Of a DNA stretch of 55,613 bases, positions 34,004-46,648 are shown piece by piece. The notes beneath the pieces are model-generated. The model saw nothing but the letters and a program-made list of their open reading frames with translations. It was not told the DNA's origin and did no database searches. The translations under genes and the position numbers were made by a program. Each line of letters starts with the position of its first letter. Within the stretch, counting starts at the first letter, position 1. This stretch comes from Candidatus Bathyarchaeota archaeon. Its GTDB lineage: Archaea; Thermoproteota; Bathyarchaeia; 40CM-2-53-6. The stretch covers positions 1 to 55,613 of the forward strand of contig VBBS01000031.1 in assembly GCA_005888745.1 (NCBI GenBank). Direction: 5' to 3'.

Positions 34004-35974
34004 TTGAAGGTTGGAGTACACGTCTCCATTTCAGGTTCCATCGACCAGGCCGTCGACCGGGCCAAGGAAGAAGGCTGCGACACCTTCCAGGTGTTCACAC
34101 GAAACCCTCGCGGCTGGAAATTCGCCGACCTAGACCCTGACGAGGTCAAGAGCTTCAAGGAAAAACTAGCCCAATCCAAACTCGGACCAGTCGTCGACCA
34201 CATGCCTTACCTTCCCAATCTGTCCTGTCCTGAAGACGAGCTCTACGAAAAATCCACTGCGACACTCTTGGCAGAAGTAGACCGTTGCGGTACCCTCGGG
34301 ATACCTTACCTCGTCTGCCATCTTGGCAGCCACCTGGGAATGGGAAGAGACGTTGGCTTGCAAAGAATCACCGACGCCCTGAACATAGCTGTCAAACGCG
34401 TCAAGAAGGATCCCTGGATACTGTTGGAGAATATGGCAGGACAGAGGAACAGTATGGGCTCCAACTTTCCCGATATCAGAGAGATCATCGACGGAGTGAA
34501 AAAGAAGGAACGATTGGGCGTCTGTCTAGACACTTGCCTTCCTCCCGGTTCACTGGTATTAAGCAATGATGTACCTACGCCAATCGAGGAAGTAAACCCA
34601 TTCGACTCGGTGGTAAGTTCAGATGGACGACCCGACCGAGTCGTAGCTATTTTGCAACGACAATATTCCGGGAATCTTATCTCAATCAAGCCCGAAGGAT
34701 TGCCTTGGATTCAAGCGACTTCGGAGCATCCTGTTCTCTGTCTCAGACCAAATGGCTGGCGATCCTTGGACTCGGCACCATGGAGAATCAGGCTGGTCAG
34801 TCAACCGACATGGGTCCATGTCAAGGAATTGAGGCCAGGTTGTTTTGTAGTCATGCCGAAACTCGCATCCGATTACACCACGCATGTAGACTTTCGTCGA
34901 TACATCGGGGCGGCGACTCGGCGATTCAGCTTTCCTTCGGTTTTGCCAATCACCGGTGCTTTTGCTGAACTATTGGGACTCTACCTAGCCGAAGGCTTCA
35001 CTTTCATGGGGCACAATGAAAGGGGAGACATTGGAAAAGTGTACTTTGCATTTGGTCCGCACGAGACCACTCTCATAGAGCGGGTCGAGAATCTCGTTGA
35101 AGAACTATTTTCCCTGAAAACTTGGATCGACGACAGCGGAACCGCAACGAAAGTATGCCTCGGCTCAAACATCTTGACCCGCTTCTTCAGGGACACCTTC
35201 GGGACCAAGGCTGCGACTAAGAAAATTCCGCTCCTTATAATGAGAGCACCTCCGGACTGCATCAAAGCTTTCCTCCACGGCTATCTGCTGGGCGATGGGT
35301 GTAAGGACCGGAGAGGAGTACGATACACTACCAGCTCAAGGACCGTCGCATACCAGTTGATACATCTCCTGGCGAAAATCGACGTTCGTGGAACTATCTC
35401 TAAGCATAGACCTACTCAGAGCTCAATTGGAGGAAGGATTTTGACGTCTCTCGGATGGTATACAGTCCACGTGGCGAGCCACGAGGCGCGGAAACTGGGA
35501 TTTGTATATGAATTTCCCACAGCCGCCCCACGTCGAATCATAAGAGACTCGAGACACTTTTACGTACCTGTGAGAGAAGTGAGGGTTGAAACGTATCAAG
35601 GTATCGTCCACAATCTAACAACCGAAAATGGAACATTCACCGCTCCTTTCGTTGTAACGCACAACTGCCACGCCTACGCCGCGGGTATGGATCTTCATAC
35701 CGAGAAGGGCGTGGGTCAGACTCTAGCGAGTTTCGACAAAGATATTGGTTTTGACAGGTTGAAAGTGGTTCATCTGAACGATTCCCGCGGGGGACAAGGG
35801 TCCGGACTTGATCGCCACGAGCATATTGGTATGGGCTACATCGGGGCAAAGGGGTTCAAGGCAATTCTGCATCACCAAGTCATCCGAGAACTGCCCTGGA
35901 TTTTGGAAACGCCTGAGGATGAGAGGCGTGGTGATAAGGGCAACTTGGAAGCGGTTCGCAAGATAGCAAAATGA
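34004..35974 (+). CDS. nfo: endonuclease IV (AP endonuclease) precursor with intein
   Basis: The spliced product is 279 residues (precursor residues 1-177 joined to 555-656), the normal size of Nfo, which cuts DNA at abasic sites. Expected zinc ligands are present: His66, His106, Glu142, Asp176, then in the C-terminal part His179, His213, Asp226, His228 and Glu258 (spliced numbering). The intein sits between Thr177 and Cys178, inside 'LDT/CHAYAAG', so the unspliced protein cannot assemble its metal site. Start is TTG 34004. The stop overlaps the ATG of nth, making a repair operon. Confidence 0.94.
   Translation: MKVGVHVSISGSIDQAVDRAKEEGCDTFQVFTRNPRGWKFADLDPDEVKSFKEKLAQSKLGPVVDHMPYLPNLSCPEDELYEKSTATLLAEVDRCGTLGIPYLVCHLGSHLGMGRDVGLQRITDALNIAVKRVKKDPWILLENMAGQRNSMGSNFPDIREIIDGVKKKERLGVCLDTCLPPGSLVLSNDVPTPIEEVNPFDSVVSSDGRPDRVVAILQRQYSGNLISIKPEGLPWIQATSEHPVLCLRPNGWRSLDSAPWRIRLVSQPTWVHVKELRPGCFVVMPKLASDYTTHVDFRRYIGAATRRFSFPSVLPITGAFAELLGLYLAEGFTFMGHNERGDIGKVYFAFGPHETTLIERVENLVEELFSLKTWIDDSGTATKVCLGSNILTRFFRDTFGTKAATKKIPLLIMRAPPDCIKAFLHGYLLGDGCKDRRGVRYTTSSRTVAYQLIHLLAKIDVRGTISKHRPTQSSIGGRILTSLGWYTVHVASHEARKLGFVYEFPTAAPRRIIRDSRHFYVPVREVRVETYQGIVHNLTTENGTFTAPFVVTHNCHAYAAGMDLHTEKGVGQTLASFDKDIGFDRLKVVHLNDSRGGQGSGLDRHEHIGMGYIGAKGFKAILHHQVIRELPWILETPEDERRGDKGNLEAVRKIAK
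34535..35665 (+). mobile_element. intein with LAGLIDADG homing endonuclease inside nfo
   Basis: This is a 377-residue in-frame insertion. It begins with Cys ('CLPPGSLVLSN', block A), has 'TSEHPVLC' (block B, TxxH), and two dodecapeptide motifs, 'LLGLYLAEG' and 'FLHGYLLGDG', with their acidic residues. It ends 'FVVTHN' before the Cys of the second extein (blocks F and G). All residues for self-splicing and for DNA cleavage are intact, so it may still be mobile. Confidence 0.93.
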
Positions 35975-36932: not shown

Positions 36933-37127
36933 TGCTGCCTCCTTTATGGTTCATAGCGTTGGCATAATCCAATAGTTTTGACCAGTTGTTCAGGTGAATT
37001 TACGGGCTTGTTCAGCCTTCTTGAATGTCGAAGTCACGCTCGTCGAGCAGTTGGAACGGGTTCTGTTAACTCTTCGTCGGATGCCTCTCTGGCTTATGCC
37101 TATGATCCCGGCTCTTGTTGTCGTATC

Positions 37128-38330
37128 GTGTTGGCTGTCAAGTCTGTCTGGCAGTACTACGCTCCAGTGGGCGATGTTCTCCTGTTGCTGGACCTGTTCA
37201 GACGGATGGTTAACGATTCCATACGTATCGGTCTATTGAACGATGCGTCTTCGCTGAGAAAGCTTTCTCTACTCTCCTACAACCAGCTTTCCTGTTATGA
37301 CTCTCCTGGCTGTTACAAGCTCTGCGCCATCTCGAGAGCAGCAGGAATACTGGCTTCTAGGAAGAAGTCTTTGAAGAGAGGCTTTCCCACCAGGACTCCT
37401 TACGCTGTGAGACCACTGTTGGTCTCTTGTTACAATTTCAGAGTAAAGAATGGAGGTCTGGAGGTTCCGATCGCAAGAGGGAAGCGCCTCAGCATATCGC
37501 TAACCAAACATACGTTAGATGTCATCTCCCAGCCAGGGGTCAAGGTTCGCTCTTTCACTCTCACACAGAACAAGCTCTGCCTCTGCATCGCCCTAGACGT
37601 TCCCATGATAGAATGTATCTCCACTGTCGGCGTAGACCGTAATCTGCGCAATCTAACTGTTGGAAACGACCAAGAGACACGTCACTACGACCTGTCAGAA
37701 ACCGTAAGAATAGCCAGCACCACAGTGCACATAGCCAGGTCTTTCAAACGCGACGATGCTAGGACAAAAGCGGGTATAGCGTCGAAGTACGGGCGACGAA
37801 GGACCGCGCGGACGAGACATCTGCTCCATAATGCCACCAAGACAATCGTCGCCCTAGCAGTCCAACGGCGAACCGCAATCGTTTTGGAAAACATTCAGGG
37901 CATACGTGCTCTTTACCGCAAGGGTAACGGTCAGGGAAGAAAGTATCGGGGCAGAATGAACGGTTGGAGCTTCGGGGAAGCTCAGCGACAGATCGAATAC
38001 AAGGCGCGCTGGGTCGGACTACCGGTTATCCGTTTGTCTAGGCGTGAGACCAGAGGTTCCAGTGTGACTTGTCCGAGATGCGGGGAGAGACTCCAATCGG
38101 ACAAGAAACTGAAACGCAAGCTCTGGTGCAGTAAGTGTAGAATAATGATGGACCGAGACACGGTGGCAGCGGTCAACTTGTCTCGGCGGGGACGGGTGAG
38201 GTTCGCACGTTCCCGGCCTCCCATCATCGAGGCGCAAGGCGGAGCAGTTGAAGCAATGAAGGGGAACCCGACGCCTACGGTAATCCACGGAGTCGATGCC
38301 CCGAAGCTAACTCAACCAAACAAGAGTTAA
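37128..38330 (+). CDS. tnpB: TnpB RNA-guided nuclease of IS605/IS1341-type element (second copy)
   Basis: This TnpB is about 400 residues long. RuvC residues Asp170 ('GVDRN'), Glu254 ('VLENIQG') and Asp344 ('DRDTVAAVN') are intact, with the zinc ribbon 'CPRCGERL ... CSKC'. GTG 37128 or TTG 37131 aligns with the N-terminus of the other TnpB; the frame is open further upstream but unlike TnpB. The tail 'EAMKGNPTPTVIHGVDAP' overlaps the conserved element end, finishing with AGTCGATG at 38291-38298. No TnpA accompanies it. Confidence 0.92.
   Translation: MLAVKSVWQYYAPVGDVLLLLDLFRRMVNDSIRIGLLNDASSLRKLSLLSYNQLSCYDSPGCYKLCAISRAAGILASRKKSLKRGFPTRTPYAVRPLLVSCYNFRVKNGGLEVPIARGKRLSISLTKHTLDVISQPGVKVRSFTLTQNKLCLCIALDVPMIECISTVGVDRNLRNLTVGNDQETRHYDLSETVRIASTTVHIARSFKRDDARTKAGIASKYGRRRTARTRHLLHNATKTIVALAVQRRTAIVLENIQGIRALYRKGNGQGRKYRGRMNGWSFGEAQRQIEYKARWVGLPVIRLSRRETRGSSVTCPRCGERLQSDKKLKRKLWCSKCRIMMDRDTVAAVNLSRRGRVRFARSRPPIIEAQGGAVEAMKGNPTPTVIHGVDAPKLTQPNKS
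38249..38298 (+). ncRNA. conserved omega-RNA-like 3' scaffold end of tnpB
   Basis: The segment TGAAGCAATG ... AGTCGATG recurs at 28982-29040 and 23777-23823 (both minus strand). It includes a GGAAC-CCGA core and a TAATCC block. In tnpB elements such conserved 3' sequence is the guide-RNA scaffold, and the bases after it form the guide. Sequence after AGTCGATG differs among the three loci, as expected for guides. Confidence 0.45.
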
Positions 38331-38348
38331 CAGAACGAGACGGAACCT

Positions 38349-38382
38349 GTAAATAGCTGCCGTCCAGTATAACATACGTCAT
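38349..38382 (+). promoter_or_regulatory. sufB promoter: TATA box and palindromic operator candidate
   Basis: TGTAAATAG (38349-38357) is followed by the near-palindrome ATAACATACGTCAT (38369-38382). The latter should cover the transcription start, 18-31 nt before the sufB ATG. It differs at only two of 14 positions from the perfect palindrome at the sufC promoter (46509-46522). Confidence 0.6.
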
Positions 38383-38399
38383 AAAGAGAGAAGGATGCG

Positions 38400-39800
38400 A
38401 TGGCTAACAAGAGTATACTCGACCTAGACTATGCGAAGTACGACTTCAAGGATACTCAGAAGCCCATCTTCAAGTCCGAGAAGGGACTCTCTCGCCAGAC
38501 TGTCGAGCAAATTTCTGATATGAAGAAAGAACCTGAATGGATGAAGAAATTCAGGCTACGAGCTTACGATCATTTCGTACAGCGTCCCATGCCAACCTGG
38601 GGCGGAAACCTCTCCCACATCGATTTCAACGACATCTACTACTACCTAAAACCCACCGACAAGGTGGAGAAGAGCTGGGACGACGTCCCAGAGAAGATCA
38701 AGAAGACCTTCGACAGGCTCGGAATACCCGAAGCCGAGAAAAAGTTCCTAGCAGGAGTAGGCGCTCAATACGAATCAGAGGTTGTCTATCACAGCCTCCT
38801 GAAACATTTGGAGGATAAGGGTGTAATCTTCTGCGACACTGATACCGCCCTCAAACTACACCCGGAGATTGTCAAGAAATATTTCGGAACAATCATTCCG
38901 CCAGAAGATAACAAGATGGCCGCGCTCAACAGCGCTGTCTGGAGCGGTGGCAGCTTCATTTACATTCCCCAAGGCGTTAAAGTCGATTTGCCACTGCAGG
39001 CATACTTCAGAATCAATGCGGCAAACATGGGACAGTTCGAGAGAACCTTGATCATTGCGGACGACTACGCAGACGTACAGTACATCGAAGGCTGCACCGC
39101 TCCGGTATATTCGACAGATTCGCTCCACTCCGCGGTCGTCGAGATAATCGCGAAGAAAGGAGCTAGGGTCCGTTATACAACTCTCCAGAACTGGTCTTCT
39201 GACGTCTACAACCTCGTCACCAAGAGAGCCTATGCTTATGAAGACGCGAGCGTCGAGTGGATCGATGCAAACGTCGGCAGTAAACTCACAATGAAATATC
39301 CGTCTGTCTACCTCGTCGGGCCAAGAGCGAAAGCCGAGATTGTCTCGGTAGCATTTGCAGGCAAGGACCGCCAGCAGGACACAGGCGCAAAAGCAGTCCA
39401 CCTCGCTCCCTACACCAGCTCCAGAATCACAGCAAAATCCGTCAGCAAAGATGGAGGACTAACCACCTATCGAGGACTAGTCCACGTTGCCAAGGGGGCA
39501 GTTGGAGTAAAATCCAGCGTTCGTTGCGATGCCTTACTAATGGACGCGCAATCGAAAACATCAACCTACCCCTACATGGAAGTCAACGAGGACGACGCAA
39601 CAATAACCCACGAAGCAACAGTTGGAAGGATAAACGAGGATCAGCTGTTCTACCTCATGTCAAGAGGCTTAACCGAGACTCAAGCCCTCAGCATGATAGT
39701 CACCGGATTCATGGAACCATTCACCAGAGTACTACCGATGGAATACGCGGTCGAGTTTAACCGGCTGATCGAGATGGAAATGGAAGGCGCCGTCGGCTAG
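38400..39800 (+). CDS. sufB: Fe-S assembly scaffold SufB
   Basis: This 466-residue SufB is part of the SufBCD complex on which Fe-S clusters are built in the cytoplasm. The beta-helix core and C-terminal region are typical: '[19 protein letters not shown]', 'YIEGCTAP', '[19 protein letters not shown]' and the conserved '[19 protein letters not shown]'. ATG 38400 follows AAGGA. sufD follows after 56 nt. SufC lies 6 kb away on the other strand. Confidence 0.96.
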
Positions 39801-39856
39801 CCACCGAATCAAACCAAAGCTTCTAACAGGCCCAGCAATCAACAGGGTAGCCAGCC

Positions 39857-41278
39857 ATGGGCAAGTCCCTCGCCAGTCCCACGGAAAGCATGATCAAAGA
39901 AGTCTCAGCGTCATTCTCCGAACCACAAGATCTCAGCAGGGAGAGATTCGTCGCTCTCGACTACTTCAACAAGCTACCTCTGGAAAAATCTACGCTCTAC
40001 ACAAAGTACGTGGACATTTTATCCGGGCTTACGCTGGACTCGTTCGAACCCGGTCTACCCTCGCAACTCAAAGCGATACCCCAGGAGATCGCCCATCTCG
40101 TCAAGGAAAGAGATGAGCCGACTCTGTCGCTCCAGGTCGACTCTCAGATGGTCCGCACAGAAGCCCACGGGACCCTCGAGAAGGAAGGAATCATATTCTC
40201 AGACATAAATTCAGCCCTCACCAACAATCCGGAACTAGCTCGAACTCACTTCACCAAGGCGATTCCCCCCGACGATGACAAGTTTGCAGCTCTAAACAAC
40301 GCCTTCTTCACCGCAGGCACATTCCTATACGTCCCGAAAGGACTCAGCGTCAGGATACCCTTCCGAAACATCGTCCTGCTCAAGACCCGTCGCCAAGCAG
40401 CATTCACTCACAACATCATCATTGCCGAAGAGAACAGTAAACTGAGTTTTCTACAGGAAGCTTACTCAAAGCTCAACCCCCGGCAACATGGTCCTGCCCT
40501 CTACAGCGAGGTGACCGAAATCTACGTCGGCGAAGATGCGGAGGTGAACTTCGCCAGCCTCCAAAACTTCGAAGGCGATGTTCATTCAACAATCAATAGA
40601 CGATGTGTTGGCCAGAAGGATTCTCGCATGAACTGGACAATCGGCCACATAGGCGGCGGGACCACACGTTCGAGAGTAGAGAGTGTCCTAAACGGACCCG
40701 GCGCAGCCGCGGAAGATGTCGAAATCGTTTTCGGGTCAGAGGCTCAGCGAGTCGACGCGGTCACCGATCTTACACATAGGTCCACCAACACAACGGGACA
40801 CGTGCTGGCGCGGGGAGTGTTGAGAGACTCAGCACGTACAATCTTCAAGGGCATGATACGAATCGAAGAAGGGGCGAAGAATTCGAACTCGTACCTGGCA
40901 GAACACGCAATGATCTTCAGCAAGAAGGCAAGAGCCGACGCAATACCAGGGCTCGAGATCATGACAAACGAGGTGAAGGCTACTCACTCGGGATCAGTTA
41001 GCCAGGTGGACGAGGAACAGATTTTCTATCTCATGTCTCGAGGCTTGTCCCAGAGCGAAGCCCAGAGAATGATCATCATCGGATTCTTACATCCCGCCGT
41101 CCAACGCATACCTCTAAGAACAGTCAGAGCTGCGATACAATACCTCATTGAGGAAAAGTGGCTGGGAAGGGGAGGACAAATCCCTCCAAGCCCCGAACAA
41201 TTACCGGAATTCGAGGAAGAGCCGGAGAAAGAAATCGTCTCTGCCGATCTGTTCGAGAGGCACTACAAGTACCGGTAG
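39857..41278 (+). CDS. sufD: Fe-S assembly protein SufD
   Basis: This 473-residue SufB/D-family protein is less conserved than SufB. It carries 'AGTFLYVPKGLSVRIPFRN', 'GQKDSRMNWTIGHIGG' and 'SGSVSQVDEEQIFYLMSRG'. Position after sufB and lack of the SufB cysteine region identify it as SufD. The C-terminal tail is long and acidic ('PEFEEEPEKEIV'). The Rieske-type gene begins 8 nt after its stop. Confidence 0.93.
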   Translation: MGKSLASPTESMIKEVSASFSEPQDLSRERFVALDYFNKLPLEKSTLYTKYVDILSGLTLDSFEPGLPSQLKAIPQEIAHLVKERDEPTLSLQVDSQMVRTEAHGTLEKEGIIFSDINSALTNNPELARTHFTKAIPPDDDKFAALNNAFFTAGTFLYVPKGLSVRIPFRNIVLLKTRRQAAFTHNIIIAEENSKLSFLQEAYSKLNPRQHGPALYSEVTEIYVGEDAEVNFASLQNFEGDVHSTINRRCVGQKDSRMNWTIGHIGGGTTRSRVESVLNGPGAAAEDVEIVFGSEAQRVDAVTDLTHRSTNTTGHVLARGVLRDSARTIFKGMIRIEEGAKNSNSYLAEHAMIFSKKARADAIPGLEIMTNEVKATHSGSVSQVDEEQIFYLMSRGLSQSEAQRMIIIGFLHPAVQRIPLRTVRAAIQYLIEEKWLGRGGQIPPSPEQLPEFEEEPEKEIVSADLFERHYKYR

Positions 41279-41285
41279 CAACTCT

Positions 41286-41597
41286 TTGGGAACTCTCATC
41301 AAGGTGTGTTCAGTCTCCGAGCTTCCTCCGGGGTCGATGAAGGGGATAGAACACGATGGCAAGAGGATCCTCGTCGTCAACGTTGAAGGAACTGTTCACG
41401 CGTGGGACGGGACATGTACTCACGAAGAGTACGACTTGTCGATGGGTTTTCTCACCGGGGACAGCGTCACATGTGCACTACACTTGTCGCGGTTCAATCT
41501 GCTGACTGGGGAGGCCGTCAATCCGCCTGCGGAGAAGCCGTTGGCTAGGTATGAGGTAAAGATAGCTGAAGGAGATATTCTAGTCGAAGTAGCATAG
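41286..41597 (+). CDS. Rieske-type ferredoxin
   Basis: This 103-residue small Rieske protein carries a 2Fe-2S cluster bound by 'CTHEEYDLSMG' (Cys-x-His) and 'CALHLSRF' (Cys-x2-His). The second box usually reads CPCHGSxF; here the flanking cysteine and glycine are replaced, which removes the disulfide of high-potential Rieske proteins and fits a soluble ferredoxin. TTG 41286 or GTG 41304 is the start; the frame also runs back inside sufD. It is co-transcribed with sufBD and may donate electrons to cluster assembly. Confidence 0.88.
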   Translation: MGTLIKVCSVSELPPGSMKGIEHDGKRILVVNVEGTVHAWDGTCTHEEYDLSMGFLTGDSVTCALHLSRFNLLTGEAVNPPAEKPLARYEVKIAEGDILVEVA

Positions 41598-41772
41598 ATC
41601 TACACATCGACTTCTCTCATTCCGAGACCCCTTCTGCCTTCCATTCTTACCCTCCCACGCTGTTTCAAGTTACATGGCCCTTTAGTCAATTCGCCCTGAT
41701 TCCCACACCAATTACCGAACGGTTTCGATGTGGACTTAGCGGAACGAGGCGGAAATTGGAAGGAGGGTAATC

Positions 41773-43362
41773 TTGTCGCGGCTGAGACGATACTTCCTAC
41801 TTTCACTCCTACAGGCGGTTCTGTTCATGACGTTGTTCAATTCTCCCGTTCGCGCGCTAAACGAAACTTACACTCTTACGGCGTCAACGGCTCGATTGCA
41901 AGAGAGTAGCACGGCAAATGCTCTCCTAACTCTGAACGTGTCTAACGCAAACACCCTGGCGAACTATGGGTTCATGTGGCATGTGAAAGACCCAAGCGGG
42001 ACCACTTCTCAAGCTAACAATCAAACAAGTGCACCTCACGCCGCATCTTTCGTAGAAAGCGTTGCTTATCCAGCGAGATTCGGCGCTAATGCGAACCTCG
42101 ATCTGGTGGGCATTTACACGGTATGGGTCAATCAGACTCAGCCACCTCTCGTGGGTTCGACGGGCGTCGGGACGACTATTCAATTCAAAGTGGGCCTAAC
42201 CGACAGTACGACATATCAGCGGACTCTCCTCGTTACAATCAGAGCCTCAGGCTACAAACCCAGTCTAAACGTAACAATCACGATTTCCAGTCAAAGCGGG
42301 CTTGCACCCAATTTCCCTACAAACAAGCTAGCTGACGGCAACGGAAACCTCTCCTATGTTTGGTCGATTCCCACGTCGATTCCTACAGGCAATTGGACCG
42401 TATCCCTCACTGGGACCCCAACGAAGAATCCACTTGATGCGCAGTCATTCACCATTTTGCCGGCGAACGTGACGATCAGCTCCCTGACGCTGAGCCGGAG
42501 CCTTTTGAAGGCGTCTCAGACGGAAGATTTCCGTTTCTCAGCAACGTATCCAAACGGTTCTCGGGTCAAATCGGGCGGGGCTAGCCTCCTTCTCGTCGAG
42601 GCTGATGGTTCCACCTCTCATTATGTCGCAATGTCCTATAGTACTGGTCTGAACCTGTTCCACGGGACATACCAGATTCCCCTGAGCAGCCAGTTTGGAC
42701 CATGGGTTGCCACAATCGAGGCTAGCACATTCGACGACACACATGGAAACAAGGGTCCAGTTTCGGGCGTATTCAAACCGTTTACAGTTACGCCGGCGAC
42801 CTTGACAGTTTCAGTTGTTACCGCGTCCAACAACTATACCACCGCTGAGATTGTGGCGATCTACGCATCGGTCCTGACTCCCGCAGGGGATAACTTCACA
42901 AGCGGAACAGTTACCGCCACAACATACTATTCCACACGCCCGATCGGCAGCCCTCTACAATTGTTCTACGACCAGAGCCGGGGCAGATGGGCAGGAAGCT
43001 ACATGGTCAACTCAACTGATCCTTCTGGGATCTGGCAGATACAAGTCAACGCGACGGATGCGTACGGCAACACGGGAGAAGGATCCACTTCAACATTAGT
43101 TAGTATTCCTAGTGCACCGCAACAAAGTTCAACGTTCAACTATCTTCTAGTTGTGGTGTTAGCGCTGCTCGGCGGCCTGGCGGTTCTTGTTTCTTGGATG
43201 ATATTCGGACGGCGAAGAGTCCTGAGAAAAGTGTTGAAAGTGGATCTTGAAGCGATTCACGCAGAGGCGAAAAAGGTCGAGAACCAGGATTTCTTCAAGA
43301 AAGTTCAGGAGCAATTGAGGCGACAGAAAGTGGGGAGCGAGGACGGTAACCACAGGGGGTAA
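41773..43362 (+). CDS. secreted Ig-like domain protein with C-terminal membrane anchor
   Basis: This 529-residue protein begins with a signal peptide (residues 1-29, cleavage near 'VRALN'). Several beta-sandwich segments of 90-100 residues follow, with many N-x-S/T sequons. A membrane helix (about 457-480, 'YLLVVVLALLGGLAVLVSWM') and a basic, helical cytoplasmic tail of about 50 residues end it. The TTG start has GGAGGG at 41762-41767. It lies between the two suf arms without an obvious link. It is probably a cell-surface protein of unknown partner. Confidence 0.85.
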   Translation: MSRLRRYFLLSLLQAVLFMTLFNSPVRALNETYTLTASTARLQESSTANALLTLNVSNANTLANYGFMWHVKDPSGTTSQANNQTSAPHAASFVESVAYPARFGANANLDLVGIYTVWVNQTQPPLVGSTGVGTTIQFKVGLTDSTTYQRTLLVTIRASGYKPSLNVTITISSQSGLAPNFPTNKLADGNGNLSYVWSIPTSIPTGNWTVSLTGTPTKNPLDAQSFTILPANVTISSLTLSRSLLKASQTEDFRFSATYPNGSRVKSGGASLLLVEADGSTSHYVAMSYSTGLNLFHGTYQIPLSSQFGPWVATIEASTFDDTHGNKGPVSGVFKPFTVTPATLTVSVVTASNNYTTAEIVAIYASVLTPAGDNFTSGTVTATTYYSTRPIGSPLQLFYDQSRGRWAGSYMVNSTDPSGIWQIQVNATDAYGNTGEGSTSTLVSIPSAPQQSSTFNYLLVVVLALLGGLAVLVSWMIFGRRRVLRKVLKVDLEAIHAEAKKVENQDFFKKVQEQLRRQKVGSEDGNHRG

Positions 43363-43389
43363 ACGAGGTCGCGGGGTTATTTCACAGAA

Positions 43390-43800
43390 TTAGAGGATTG
43401 ATGGTTCTTCCTTGGTAGCATCAGTGGAACCGATGTAATCGTAGACTCCAGTCTTCAATACTTTCAGAGATAATAGGGCGCATTTCAGTCTCACCGCCGT
43501 AAGCTGTCCACCTATCAGCGATAGAACGTCTTCCTTGGAGATCTTGCGGACATCATCAACGGTTTTCCCCTTAACGAGCTCTGTCAGCATAGAGGCCGAG
43601 GCTTGGCTTATCGCGCAGCCTTGCCCGTTGAACTTCACATCTTTCACAATATTCCTCTCGTCGAGCTCAAGTTGCATCTCGACTACGTCTCCGCACAACG
43701 GGTTCGTGTCTCTCGCGTGAATCTGAGCACGGGGCAAGCTGCCCTTGTTCCGGGGATAGCGGTAGTAGTCGAGAATTATCTCGGAATAAATAGAGCTCAT
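43390..43800 (-). CDS. sufU: Fe-S scaffold/sulfur transfer protein SufU (IscU type)
   Basis: This 136-residue protein has the three conserved cysteines: Cys36 ('NPLCGD'), Cys62 ('GCAISQASAS') and Cys107 ('RLKCALLSLK'). The Gly-rich insertion around 'KEDVLSLIGG' before the last cysteine fits SufU, which accepts sulfur from SufS and in many cases binds zinc. ATG 43800 overlaps the end of sufS by 4 nt, so the pair is translationally coupled. Confidence 0.94.
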   Translation of the reverse strand: MSSIYSEIILDYYRYPRNKGSLPRAQIHARDTNPLCGDVVEMQLELDERNIVKDVKFNGQGCAISQASASMLTELVKGKTVDDVRKISKEDVLSLIGGQLTAVRLKCALLSLKVLKTGVYDYIGSTDATKEEPSIL

Positions 43801-45041
43801 ATCTTGAATATTCTTCCCGCCCGTTTCACAGATTCTGCAAGCCGGTCGATTTCCTCCTCATTGTTGTAGACATAGACGCTTGCCCGGGTCGTGGAAGAGA
43901 CCCCGAGTCGTTCCATCAGCGGCTGTGCACAATGATGACCTGACCGCACGGCGATCCCGTCTTCGTCCAGAAGAGTTGCCATATCGTGAGCATGAACATC
44001 CCCCAAATTGAAACTTATCACCCCAGCTTTTGTCCCCGGATTCTCGGGACCATAGATTCTAATGCCCTTCACCTTGCCCAGTCTGTCATGCGCGTATTCT
44101 GTCAATTCCCGTTCGTGCCCTTGTATGTTGCGCAGTCCTAGCTCTGACACATAATCGACGGCTTTTCCTAAACCAATCGCCCCAGCTATGTTGGTGGTTC
44201 CCGCTTCAAATTTGTAGGGAGAATCCTTCCAGGTTGATTCGTAAAGGTGGACTTCTCGGATCATCTCGCCGCCTCCGTGATAAGGAGGCATTTCTTCGAG
44301 CTGCGTTTTTTTCGCAAATAATACTCCTATCCCCGTTGGGCCGCACATCTTGTGTCCTGAGAAAGCAAGAAAGTCGCAATCTAGATCTCGAACATCTACC
44401 GGGATGTGGGGAACAGATTGGGCAGCATCAACGAGGACTGGACAGCCCTGCTTGTGTGCTTCTCGGACGTACTCACGAACCGGATTGATCGTTCCGAGAA
44501 CGTTCGACACGTGAGTCATAGTAACGAGTTTGATTCCCCCTGATTCCAGGTGCAGTCGAAAATCGTCATGGATCAGATGGCCATCATCGGTCAACCCTAC
44601 GTACTTCAGATGCGCACCTCTCTCCTTGGCGAGTAGTTGCCATGGGACAATGTTGCTGTGGTGCTCCATCTCGGTAAGAATGATCCCATCTCCAAGACCA
44701 ATGTTTGTCCGGCCCCAGGACTGGGCGACTAGGTTGATGGCCTCTGTGGTCCCGCGAACAAAGATTATCTCGCTCGGACTGCTCGCGTTTATCAGCCGAG
44801 CAATCTTGGCCCTTGCCTCTTCATAAGCCGCAGTCGCCTCTTCGCTGATCTTGTAGACTCCACGATGAACGTTAGCATTGTACTCGTTGTAAAAACGGGT
44901 CAGCTCATCGATTACGTCTCGAGGTTTCTGGGTCGTGGCCGCGCTGTCTAGATATGCTAGCGGCTTTCCATTGATAATGCGTTTGAGGATCGGGAAATCA
45001 TGTCTGACCTTTTCGACGTCGTACGGTTCCTTTCCGTGAAT
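43797..45041 (-). CDS. sufS: cysteine desulfurase SufS, no canonical start codon
   Basis: This pyridoxal-phosphate enzyme releases sulfur from cysteine for cluster assembly. It starts its homology at 'PYDVEKVRHDFPILKRIING' and shows the PLP lysine in 'FSGHKMCGP' and the active cysteine in 'RSGHHCAQP'. About 414 residues is normal. No ATG, GTG or TTG exists in frame between the stop of the upstream hesB gene (45121) and the conserved region. The frame continues into hesB, where the residues are its shadow. ATT 45041, about three residues before 'KEPYDV', is the best-placed start. Confidence 0.9.
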   Translation of the reverse strand: MHGKEPYDVEKVRHDFPILKRIINGKPLAYLDSAATTQKPRDVIDELTRFYNEYNANVHRGVYKISEEATAAYEEARAKIARLINASSPSEIIFVRGTTEAINLVAQSWGRTNIGLGDGIILTEMEHHSNIVPWQLLAKERGAHLKYVGLTDDGHLIHDDFRLHLESGGIKLVTMTHVSNVLGTINPVREYVREAHKQGCPVLVDAAQSVPHIPVDVRDLDCDFLAFSGHKMCGPTGIGVLFAKKTQLEEMPPYHGGGEMIREVHLYESTWKDSPYKFEAGTTNIAGAIGLGKAVDYVSELGLRNIQGHERELTEYAHDRLGKVKGIRIYGPENPGTKAGVISFNLGDVHAHDMATLLDEDGIAVRSGHHCAQPLMERLGVSSTTRASVYVYNNEEEIDRLAESVKRAGRIFKI

Positions 45042-45120
45042 GTATGCTGTCGCCTGTTTTTGCGTAGCGTATCCCCTGACAGTGCTCTGCGCAAGCTGTC
45101 CGGGAAAAGTTAGGGGAAGC

Positions 45121-45501
45121 TTAGTAGTGGGCGTGGTGCTCTTCGGGACTGCGAGCCCCGGTAGCCTGTTCCTTGCCTTTCGGTACGAAGCTATGGCCGC
45201 AACCGCATGTGAGGTAGCTTTCGGGGAAGTTGAACTTGAAGCCCCCACCCATCTCCGTCTCAACATAATCGATCTCGGCGTCTCCGAGAAGGTCCGCGCT
45301 CTTCGGGTCAGCTACAATGTTCACACCGTTCTTGTGCTCGATGACATCGCTGTCGCTGGTTTTATCCAGCTTCAGACCGAACTGGTATCCCGCGCATCCT
45401 CCTGCTTTGACGAAGATTCGTAGGGCGAGGGACGGGTCGCTGACCTGTTTCAAATAGTCCTGGACCTTGACCGCTGCCTTCTCAGTTATGCTAATTGCCA
45501 T
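45121..45501 (-). CDS. A-type Fe-S carrier (HesB/IscA family)
   Basis: This 126-residue carrier delivers assembled clusters to target proteins. The three cysteines are Cys36 ('GGCAGYQFG'), Cys99 and Cys101 ('LTCGCGHSF'). The tail after residue 105 is a His-rich extension ('SPEEHHAHY') not seen in most relatives. ATG 45501 has a TATA element (45531-45540) at leaderless-like distance. It is followed by sufS and sufU on the same strand. Confidence 0.93.
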   Translation of the reverse strand: MAISITEKAAVKVQDYLKQVSDPSLALRIFVKAGGCAGYQFGLKLDKTSDSDVIEHKNGVNIVADPKSADLLGDAEIDYVETEMGGGFKFNFPESYLTCGCGHSFVPKGKEQATGARSPEEHHAHY

Positions 45502-45530
45502 ATTCTCTACCTAGTGCTAGCTCAGGGCTC

Positions 45531-45565
45531 CCTTTTTAACCCAATCCCTTCTAAGAAGGCTTGGG
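45531..45565 (-). promoter_or_regulatory. hesB promoter: TATA box and upstream inverted repeat
   Basis: The TATA-like GTTAAAAAGG (45531-45540) touches an imperfect inverted repeat (45540-45565) made of CCCAA/TTGGG outer arms and CTTCT/AGAAG inner arms. The repeat could be the sufC terminator, a regulator site, or both, since sufC ends at 45608 on the same strand. Confidence 0.5.
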
Positions 45566-45607
45566 TTCGGTAACGGGGTTGTTTCAAGACGGTTTATCCC
45601 AAGACGC

Positions 45608-46429
45608 TTATTCGGTAGGGTGACCATTACCCTGTTGAGGAACCATGGAATCCGTAACCTCACCGACTTCCTTCTTTATCCAATCATAGCCTCTTGCCTC
45701 CAGAACGTCTGCGAGCTCGGGTCCGCCTGACTTTACCATTCTGCCGTCGAGGAGGATGTGCACGTGGTTGGGTTTGATGTATCGTAGGATTCTCTGGTAG
45801 TGTGTGATGATCATGACGCCCATTTCGGGGCCTACGAGCTTGTTCACGCCTTCGGCGACGATTTTGACGGAATCTATGTCCAGTCCGGAGTCTGTTTCGT
45901 CCAGAACGGCTATTTTCGGCTGTAAAACTGCCAGTTGGAGTATTTCGCAACGCTTCTTCTCACCCCCGGAGAACCCTTCGTTAAGGTATCTTGTTGCGAA
46001 AGAGTCGTCCATATCGAGAAGCCTGAGCTTCTCCTTCAAGAGCTTTCTAAACTCGAGAACCGAGACCATTTCTTGGCCCAGGTCACCTCGCTTTCCTCCC
46101 TGCCGGACAGAATTGTAGGCAGTTCGGAGAAAGGTGGAAAGTGATACTCCTGGGACTTCATACGGGTATTGGAATGCGAGAAACACGCCTTTCCTGGCTC
46201 TGGCATCTGGTGCTAGGTTCAGGAGCGTTTGTCCGTCAAAACTGATGTCGCCTTTTGTCACCTTGTATTTGGGGTGTCCCATTATAGTCGAGGCTAGCGT
46301 GCTCTTTCCAGAGCCGTTTGGTCCCATGATCGCGTGTATTTCGCCTTGTTTGACTTGAAAGTCGACTCCTTTCAGTATCTCTTTTCCTTCAATGGAAGCG
46401 TGCAGGTCTTTGATTTCCAGCTGGCTCAA
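45608..46429 (-). CDS. sufC: Fe-S assembly ATPase SufC
   Basis: This ABC-type ATPase forms the SufBC2D complex. Walker A is 'GPNGSGKST', the signature is 'FSGGEKKR' and Walker B is '[11 protein letters not shown]'. The TTG at 46429 gives '[18 protein letters not shown]', the normal SufC N-terminus, and is preceded by AAGGA. ATG codons at 46510, 46522 and 46537 would add 27-36 residues but lie at or before the predicted transcription start set by the TATA box at 46520-46527. It may head the left-facing arm with hesB, sufS and sufU. Confidence 0.93.
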
Positions 46430-46508
46430 TTCCTGATCCTTCTCACTTTCTCGCTTGGGTTCTATACGTGCCTTGTTTTCCCCTTTTTCGTGGCCCGACG
46501 AGAGCGGC

Positions 46509-46528
46509 ATGACGTACGTCATATTTAA
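46509..46528 (-). promoter_or_regulatory. sufC promoter: TATA box and perfect palindrome
   Basis: The TATA box TTAAATAT (46520-46527) runs into ATGACGTACGTCAT (46509-46522), a perfect 14-bp palindrome. Twelve of 14 bases recur at the sufB promoter (38369-38382), suggesting one regulator for both suf arms. Confidence 0.65.
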
Positions 46529-46648
46529 GGGCTCCAAAACCGCGCCAAGGAAATCTGTGACTTCACTCCGAGCCTCGCAGTTACGCCCTGATTATCGCTA
46601 GCAGCGCAGTTGTGGAACTAGGGACATCTTCCCAGAGCCTAGAGGAAA

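Follow-up and report, generated by a model that had tools for sequence, protein, structure and literature searches.

A conserved palindrome at suf promoters in a family of Bathyarchaeota and a candidate regulator of iron-sulfur, sulfur and metal supply genes

The control of iron-sulfur (Fe-S) homeostasis is well described in bacteria, and the locus studied here raises the question of whether a short palindrome serves a similar purpose in an archaeon. The window, by which we mean the whole analysed stretch of 55,613 nucleotides from contig VBBS01000031.1 of a Candidatus Bathyarchaeota archaeon, contains suf genes for Fe-S cluster assembly in two arms on opposite strands, headed by sufB and sufC. 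A preliminary description had reported a perfect 14-bp palindrome touching the TATA box of sufC and a related site at the predicted transcription start of sufB, and had suggested that a new operator might be common to both arms, positioned so that a bound dimer could block RNA polymerase. Both sites were confirmed (Table 1). The sufC site, ATGACGTACGTCAT, is a perfect palindrome directly after TTAAATAT, and its first bases overlap the TATA box (minus strand CTTAAATATGACG, from 46529 down). Counted from the first base (38348) of the TATA-like element TGTAAATA, the sufB site, ATAACATACGTCAT, starts 21 bp further downstream; archaeal transcription starts about 25 bp from the TATA box, so the site lies where the start is expected. 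One point had to be corrected: sufC probably starts not at the first TTG of the open reading frame (ORF), at 46537, but at the TTG at 46427-46429, which follows the palindrome at a distance of about 80 bp.

A palindrome kept at sulfur and Fe-S gene promoters

A search of the window with up to 3 mismatches gave 4 matches, compared with a mean of 1.58 in shuffled sequences, and 4 matches were reached by 7 of 100 shuffles, so that the evidence from the window is weak when taken by itself. The degenerate form ATRACRTAYGTYAT, which was partly fitted to both sites, matched twice in the window and in none of 100 shuffles. Since the window cannot decide the matter, the decisive test lies outside it, in a count across the genus.

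In the 18 genomes of the genus, ATRACRTAYGTYAT was present without exception, at 70 places (2 to 5 in each genome), while the reversed-pattern control gave 0. The gene behind each site, assigned by our own reading with families checked by Pfam and NCBIfam, was a rhodanese gene at 23 places, sufB at 15, sufC at 14, a 125-amino acid ORF (ORF125) or a cysteine-synthase-like gene at 13, a ZIP transporter gene at 2, a beta-carbonic-anhydrase-like gene at 2 and OsmC at 1. At contig ends, a rhodanese site in G000 and a sufC site in G010 were probably each counted twice. Two sites (G010:C120 and G001:C32) were placed solely by coordinates beside sufB or sufC matches, and three others by gene order at a contig end (G010:C50), by a short flank before a run of N (G002:C98) and by a gene remnant (G002:C42). 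Wherever the surroundings were readable, the sites were promoter-proximal. ORF125 was, in the majority of the relatives whose regions were read, divergent from the cysteine-synthase-like gene and shared a single site with it. At a carbonic-anhydrase-like gene in G002 (L089:2380-2520) the operator was followed by what appeared to be the last part of the gene only, which may reflect a deletion or a misassembly.

Promoters were aligned on the already known sites for sufB (15), sufC (13), rhodanese (10), ORF125 (12), the candidate regulator described below (18) and ZIP (9), leaving out the G010 sufB site and second rhodanese sites. Column identity within the sites was 0.93 to 0.99, compared with 0.44 to 0.83 in the flanking 25-bp blocks. 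Conservation upstream of the suf genes in relatives, which the preliminary description had named as a check, was therefore borne out, as the sufB and sufC sites are kept across the genus while their flanks have diverged. The site touches the TATA box from downstream at sufC, rhodanese and ORF125, and lies over the expected start at sufB.

The genome from which the window is taken (G000; 2.2 Mb in 75 contigs) contained few copies of the motif when counted genome-wide, as had also been proposed: the exact palindrome with at most 2 mismatches occurred at 9 places, versus 2 for the reversed control. One of the nine (C33:132857) is within an ORF, as is C20:104542 (one mismatch), and C20:3969 is intergenic. 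The five exact copies of ATRACRTAYGTYAT probably represent four loci, since the end of contig C39 is, as its reverse complement, almost the same as that of C63. Beyond sufB and sufC, these copies precede a rhodanese gene, where a second near-palindrome follows 27 bp further on, and ORF125, located upstream of a PF00175/PF10418 oxidoreductase gene; the palindrome follows TTAATAT at both. ORF125 itself (L007:5154-5531) is a conserved protein of the regulon with no Pfam or NCBIfam family above cut-off, and the oxidoreductase encoded downstream has an Fe-S binding domain. In this genome ORF125 and the cysteine-synthase-like gene, which are adjacent in the majority of relatives read, are separated by a PIN-like ORF (identified by eye) and further ORFs (L007:5565-7817).

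A further 43 genomes were searched beyond the genus, namely 3 from the same family, one per genus, and 40 more distant ones. All 3 family genomes contained ATRACRTAYGTYAT, at 5, 4 and 2 places, as did 3 of the 40 distant genomes (G021, G051 and G057) at one place each, the exact site in G021 being within an ORF. Nine of the 11 family places were at rhodanese, sufB, sufC, sufS, ORF125 or cysteine-synthase-like genes. The exact sites in G019 were at rhodanese, cysteine-synthase-like, ORF125 and sufS genes, and the cysteine-synthase-like gene heads a PALP / JAB / ThiS-ThiF-rhodanese cluster in this genome, which argues that the targets have changed while the sulfur theme was kept. Among the best 80 of 152 SufB loci in named genomes, 12 were family loci with the site, and the available DNA of the other 68, mostly bacterial, contained no exact copy. 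Most of the named relatives are Candidatus Bathyarchaeota assemblies, and sample names point to a soil origin. We also noted that in G018 the reading frame of sufB is interrupted towards its end (L026 / L155), which may be an assembly error or a real break.

These comparisons give good support to the palindrome as a conserved operator whose regulon occurs in one archaeal family, and the suggestion of a new operator for both suf arms gains support from its genus-wide conservation and its placement in promoters. The regulon is wider than the preliminary description had it, including also the rhodanese gene, the cysteine-synthase-like gene, the ZIP transporter and a specific candidate regulator with its own gene.

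A candidate regulator with the site in its own promoter

A one-mismatch copy at G000:C20:117996 is located in a promoter region from which two genes diverge, one a PF01883 Fe-S assembly gene and the other encoding a protein of 149 amino acids (G000:C20:118051-118497). This protein has an N-terminal helix-turn-helix (HTH) domain, HTH_3, and a cysteine-rich C-terminal part without a Pfam match near cut-off. Its HTH_3 match (PF01381; protein P0003) of 23.0 bits equals the cut-off of 23 and places it among the XRE/Cro-type proteins, and HTH_3 was found in all 10 aligned family members at E <= 0.01. The gene is present once each in 17 of the 18 genus genomes and in G018, and in 18 of 18 close orthologues the variant ATRACRTARGTYAT is located directly upstream of the TATA sequence, GTTTAAATA or GTTTATATA. 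A search of the genus with ATRACRTARGTYAT gave 28 places in 17 genomes (4 places for the reversed control), all of which were assigned: 17 to the regulator gene, 7 to ZIP, 2 to rhodanese and 2 to sufC. ZIP transporter sites were found in 9 of the 18 genus genomes. In G019, a homologue with 43% identity is encoded about 3.5 kb upstream of sufC-sufB-sufD, and the variant ATAACACACGTCAT precedes sufC. The cysteine-rich DNA-binding protein is a likely sensor because its gene carries the control site of the regulon, and it is likely to be the regulator that binds the palindrome.

The cysteines were compared in 38 homologues (29 plus 9), with the G015 copy left out. C5, C91 and C94 occurred together in 36 of them, and C104, C119 and C122 together in 35, with C or H at position 107. 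Three homologues had the first set only, one (G019, L257) lacked C5 and C91, and another (L325) lacked C5, C91 and C94; the latter two both kept the second set. This pattern of presence and absence suggests two separable metal sites, of which site A (C5, C91, C94) would link the HTH end to the C-terminal part and site B would consist of C104, C/H107, C119 and C122. What the sequences show here is the conservation of the cysteines; the regulator would probably sense Fe-S or metal status.

More distant homologues were chosen by protein similarity alone, independently of any sites. The half-site pattern ATRAC-N3/4-GTYAT was present in 6 of 12 promoters (shuffle mean 0.02, maximum 1), three of the six belonging to one genus. 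In a phylum-wide set, for which 10 of 11 loci were used (L319 was dropped and the own gene, L314, left out), it was present in 5 of 10 promoters (shuffle mean 0.019, maximum 1). Three of these five were genomes of family f20 with exact ATGACATACGTCAT and one was a genome of family f21 with two close variants, while the fifth, L315, repeats a gene of the first set (L263); the stretch for L321 begins too far upstream to be a real promoter. Tandem copies were seen in two regulator-homologue promoters (G112 and G171). In the phylum sample, 111 of 121 genomes contained a match to the cysteine-rich XRE-type family, a count that includes the own genome and some matches to longer proteins. The scanned family member had no specific named model above cut-off, and the solved chains best matched to the family profile, Cro, Noc, HipB and similar, were weak matches (E 0.008 to 0.1) confined to the HTH part. 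It may tentatively be proposed, as the less probable view, that the family is an ancient archaeal counterpart of IscR and SufR, an autoregulated sensor of Fe-S or sulfur status with two separable cysteine sites, one of them joining the DNA-binding domain to the C-terminal part, and with an ATRAC/GTYAT half-site retained across several families.

Proposed mode of action and alternatives

Four things are read directly from the DNA: the operator, how well it is conserved, which genes it controls, and that it accompanies the regulator gene in close as well as distant relatives. Binding, repression and signal are what we infer. The XRE/Cro-type regulator would bind ATRAC-N4-GTYAT as a dimer, beside the TATA box or a short way downstream, and would keep the TATA-binding protein (TBP) and transcription factor B (TFB) or RNA polymerase off the promoter, blocking initiation both where the palindrome touches the TATA box and at the sufB start. 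A drop in the Fe-S or metal occupancy of its cysteines would make the regulator release the DNA, and metal and sulfur supply and cluster assembly would rise. The regulon would thereby join both suf arms, sulfur mobilisation through the rhodanese and cysteine-synthase-like genes, metal uptake through ZIP, and the gene of the regulator itself. The position of the sites suggests that they serve repression, not activation. The combination of metal, sulfur and assembly targets fits relief of repression upon a fall in occupancy, as reported for the bacterial regulators SufR, RisR and IscR (PMC7058544, PMC9973013, PMC9628965). As a whole, we regard it as probable that the 149-amino acid XRE-type protein is the regulator and represses its own gene along with genes for Fe-S, sulfur and metal supply.

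Several observations weigh against this model. The HTH_3 score of the candidate equals the Pfam cut-off without exceeding it, and the regulator was not found in 2 of the 21 site-bearing family genomes, G011 (52% complete) and G020 (80% complete). The G019 homologue lacks C5 and C91 although G019 keeps exact sites. Of the family sites, one in G018 neighbours an Alba gene and one in G020 is at a contig end without a readable target. The half-site was not matched in the other 6 of the 12 and 5 of the 10 distant homologue promoters. Furthermore, the broader pattern ATRACRYRYGTYAT was matched in only 3 of 9 genomes from other families, all of them belonging to genus g13. Of the 10 places matched there, 3 were at the regulator homologue and the other 7 had no clear sulfur theme; the control had a single match each in 2 of the 9 genomes. 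Finally, the site of the regulator's own gene immediately precedes the TATA box and covers the expected TFB recognition element, a position that would also allow activation.

This last position is what favors a regulon in which the sites activate, or in which repression downstream of the TATA box is combined with activation upstream of it, at the regulator's own gene. Dual archaeal regulators of such a kind are known, but the sites that touch the TATA box from downstream at sufC, rhodanese and ORF125, like the one over the sufB start, are in typical positions for repression, and we consider activation or dual control rather unlikely. A stronger competitor concerns the signal, which could be cysteine, sulfide or persulfide, with the cysteines holding structural zinc or reacting with sulfur. 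The many sulfur targets, namely the rhodanese and cysteine-synthase-like genes and the G019 cluster, agree with such a signal, and the residues of site B seem to resemble a zinc knuckle. Against this, C5, C91 and C94 behave as a separate unit, and the ZIP sites in half of the genus genomes together with both suf arms point to metal and clusters; a sulfur signal is a genuine possibility, if less probable than Fe-S or metal sensing.

The operator and the regulon could also be real and be bound by another protein, with the XRE-type gene as merely one more target. A gene for a 247-amino acid HTH protein also shares a site, divergent from ZIP in two genomes, no copy of the candidate was detected in two site-bearing family genomes, and Rrf2 was the sole family searched for, the search not extending to SufR-, DtxR-, Lrp- and TetR-type proteins. 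However, the 247-amino acid protein was found in 3 of the 18 genus genomes only and was rejected as a master regulator. Rrf2 regulators were likewise rejected as the binder, as none of 41 genomes exceeded the curated PF02082 cut-off, which the control exceeded in 12 of 14 known genomes. Matches below that cut-off (E <= 0.001) occurred in 21 of the 41 genomes, and the three that were read were other HTH proteins, as judged by eye. The half-sites at the own promoters of candidate homologues in other families are not what a mere target would predict, and we find another binder improbable. Least credible of all are chance palindromes or a chromosome-partition site, an explanation to which we assign hardly any weight. 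A small number of palindromic sites per genome does resemble partition sites, and the archaeal partition protein SegB binds a 13-bp palindrome, but SegB sites are mostly intragenic and read TCTAGASTCTAGA (PMC12284271), whereas the sites here touch TATA boxes and precede sulfur genes. SegB and other partition sites were rejected on this difference in motif and placement, and a report on ParB and SerK had no bearing on the palindrome.

The 247-amino acid protein (L088:1689-2432, L099) has HTH and rubrerythrin matches below cut-off and is possibly an iron-sensing regulator of its own.

Features of the window and comparison with known systems

The suf genes and control elements of the window are listed in Table 1. 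A TnpB-type gene (36978-38330, PF07282) is located directly upstream of the sufB promoter and is missing there in three aligned relatives; similarity to these relatives resumes at 38337, past the gene, so the sufB TATA element and operator are intact. TnpB-like genes were also seen beside the ZIP operator in G016 (L304:1569-2792, PF07282) and, by eye, in the sufC region of G013 (L149). Elsewhere in the window, at 34004-35974, an Endonuclease IV-like gene (PF01261) is split by an intein-like insert bearing LAGLIDADG (PF14528 above cut-off, PF14890 below).

Table 1. Positions of suf genes and control elements in the window
Feature	Position	Strand	Evidence and remarks
sufB TATA-like element TGTAAATA	38348..38355	+	GAGACGGAACC block before it seen in many relatives
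Operator, sufB promoter, ATAACATACGTCAT	38369..38382	+	Column identity mean 0.99 in 15 aligned promoters; flanking blocks 0.48-0.66
sufB, Fe-S assembly scaffold	38400..39800	+	TIGR01980 sufB 710.4 bits, cut-off 346.4
sufD-like gene, likely same operon as sufB	39857..41278	+	PF01458, PF19295
Rieske-type ferredoxin ORF	41148..41597	+	PF00355; start as listed falls within sufD, the gene probably begins beyond it
sufU/IscU-like scaffold	43390..43800	-	PF01592
sufS-like cysteine desulfurase ORF	43797..45266	-	PF00266; overlaps carrier ORF, true start probably inside
sufA/HesB-like carrier	45121..45501	-	PF01521
sufC, Fe-S assembly ATPase	45608..46429	-	TIGR01978 sufC 356 bits, cut-off 212.8, score taken on longer ORF 45608-46537; start TTG inferred from relatives
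Operator, sufC promoter, ATGACGTACGTCAT, perfect palindrome	46509..46522	-	Column identity mean 0.97 in 13 aligned promoters
sufC TATA box CTTAAATA, runs into palindrome	46522..46529	-	

In the literature searched, which mostly excluded subscription journals, we found no description of a suf regulon in archaea whose operator and regulator are both defined, nor, with the same incomplete coverage, of the palindrome operator or the 149-amino acid protein. The preliminary description had also held that the palindrome does not match the DtxR/IdeR, IscR or SufR sites. The motifs of RisR and SegB differ from it. DtxR/IdeR regulators have a Fe_dep_repress domain and a TTAGGTTAGCCTAA-like site that is unlike the palindrome here. 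The candidate resembles Cro-like XRE repressors in its HTH type and differs in that the match covers the HTH only and does not extend to the cysteine-rich C-terminal part. Bacterial cysteine regulons of the CymR type likewise place cysteine synthesis and sulfur genes under joint control; CymR belongs to the Rrf2 family, of which no protein over cut-off was found here.

In this family of Bathyarchaeota, metal uptake, sulfur supply and cluster assembly are tied together by one palindrome, and the regulon leads to a single protein, whose own family is matched in most of the phylum sample, so that the question of Fe-S and sulfur sensing in these archaea is now directly testable with a single protein and a 14-bp site. 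The closest likenesses are to the bacterial Fe-S regulators. SufR is an ArsR/DeoR-type winged HTH protein with C-terminal Fe-S cysteines and a CAAC-type site, encoded divergently to sufB. The Rrf2 proteins IscR and RisR are Fe-S regulators of suf and isc operons. RisR binds a palindrome in both of these promoters, T(t/g)GAC-N7-GTCC(t/a) with the core GAC-N7-GTC (PMC9973013), while the window sites read ATRAC-N4-GTYAT and differ in spacing. In cyanobacteria, SufR represses the suf operon and itself and coordinates [4Fe-4S] clusters (PMC7058544), which is the logic proposed here; the candidate regulator, in contrast, is of XRE/Cro type, and the regulon is wider.

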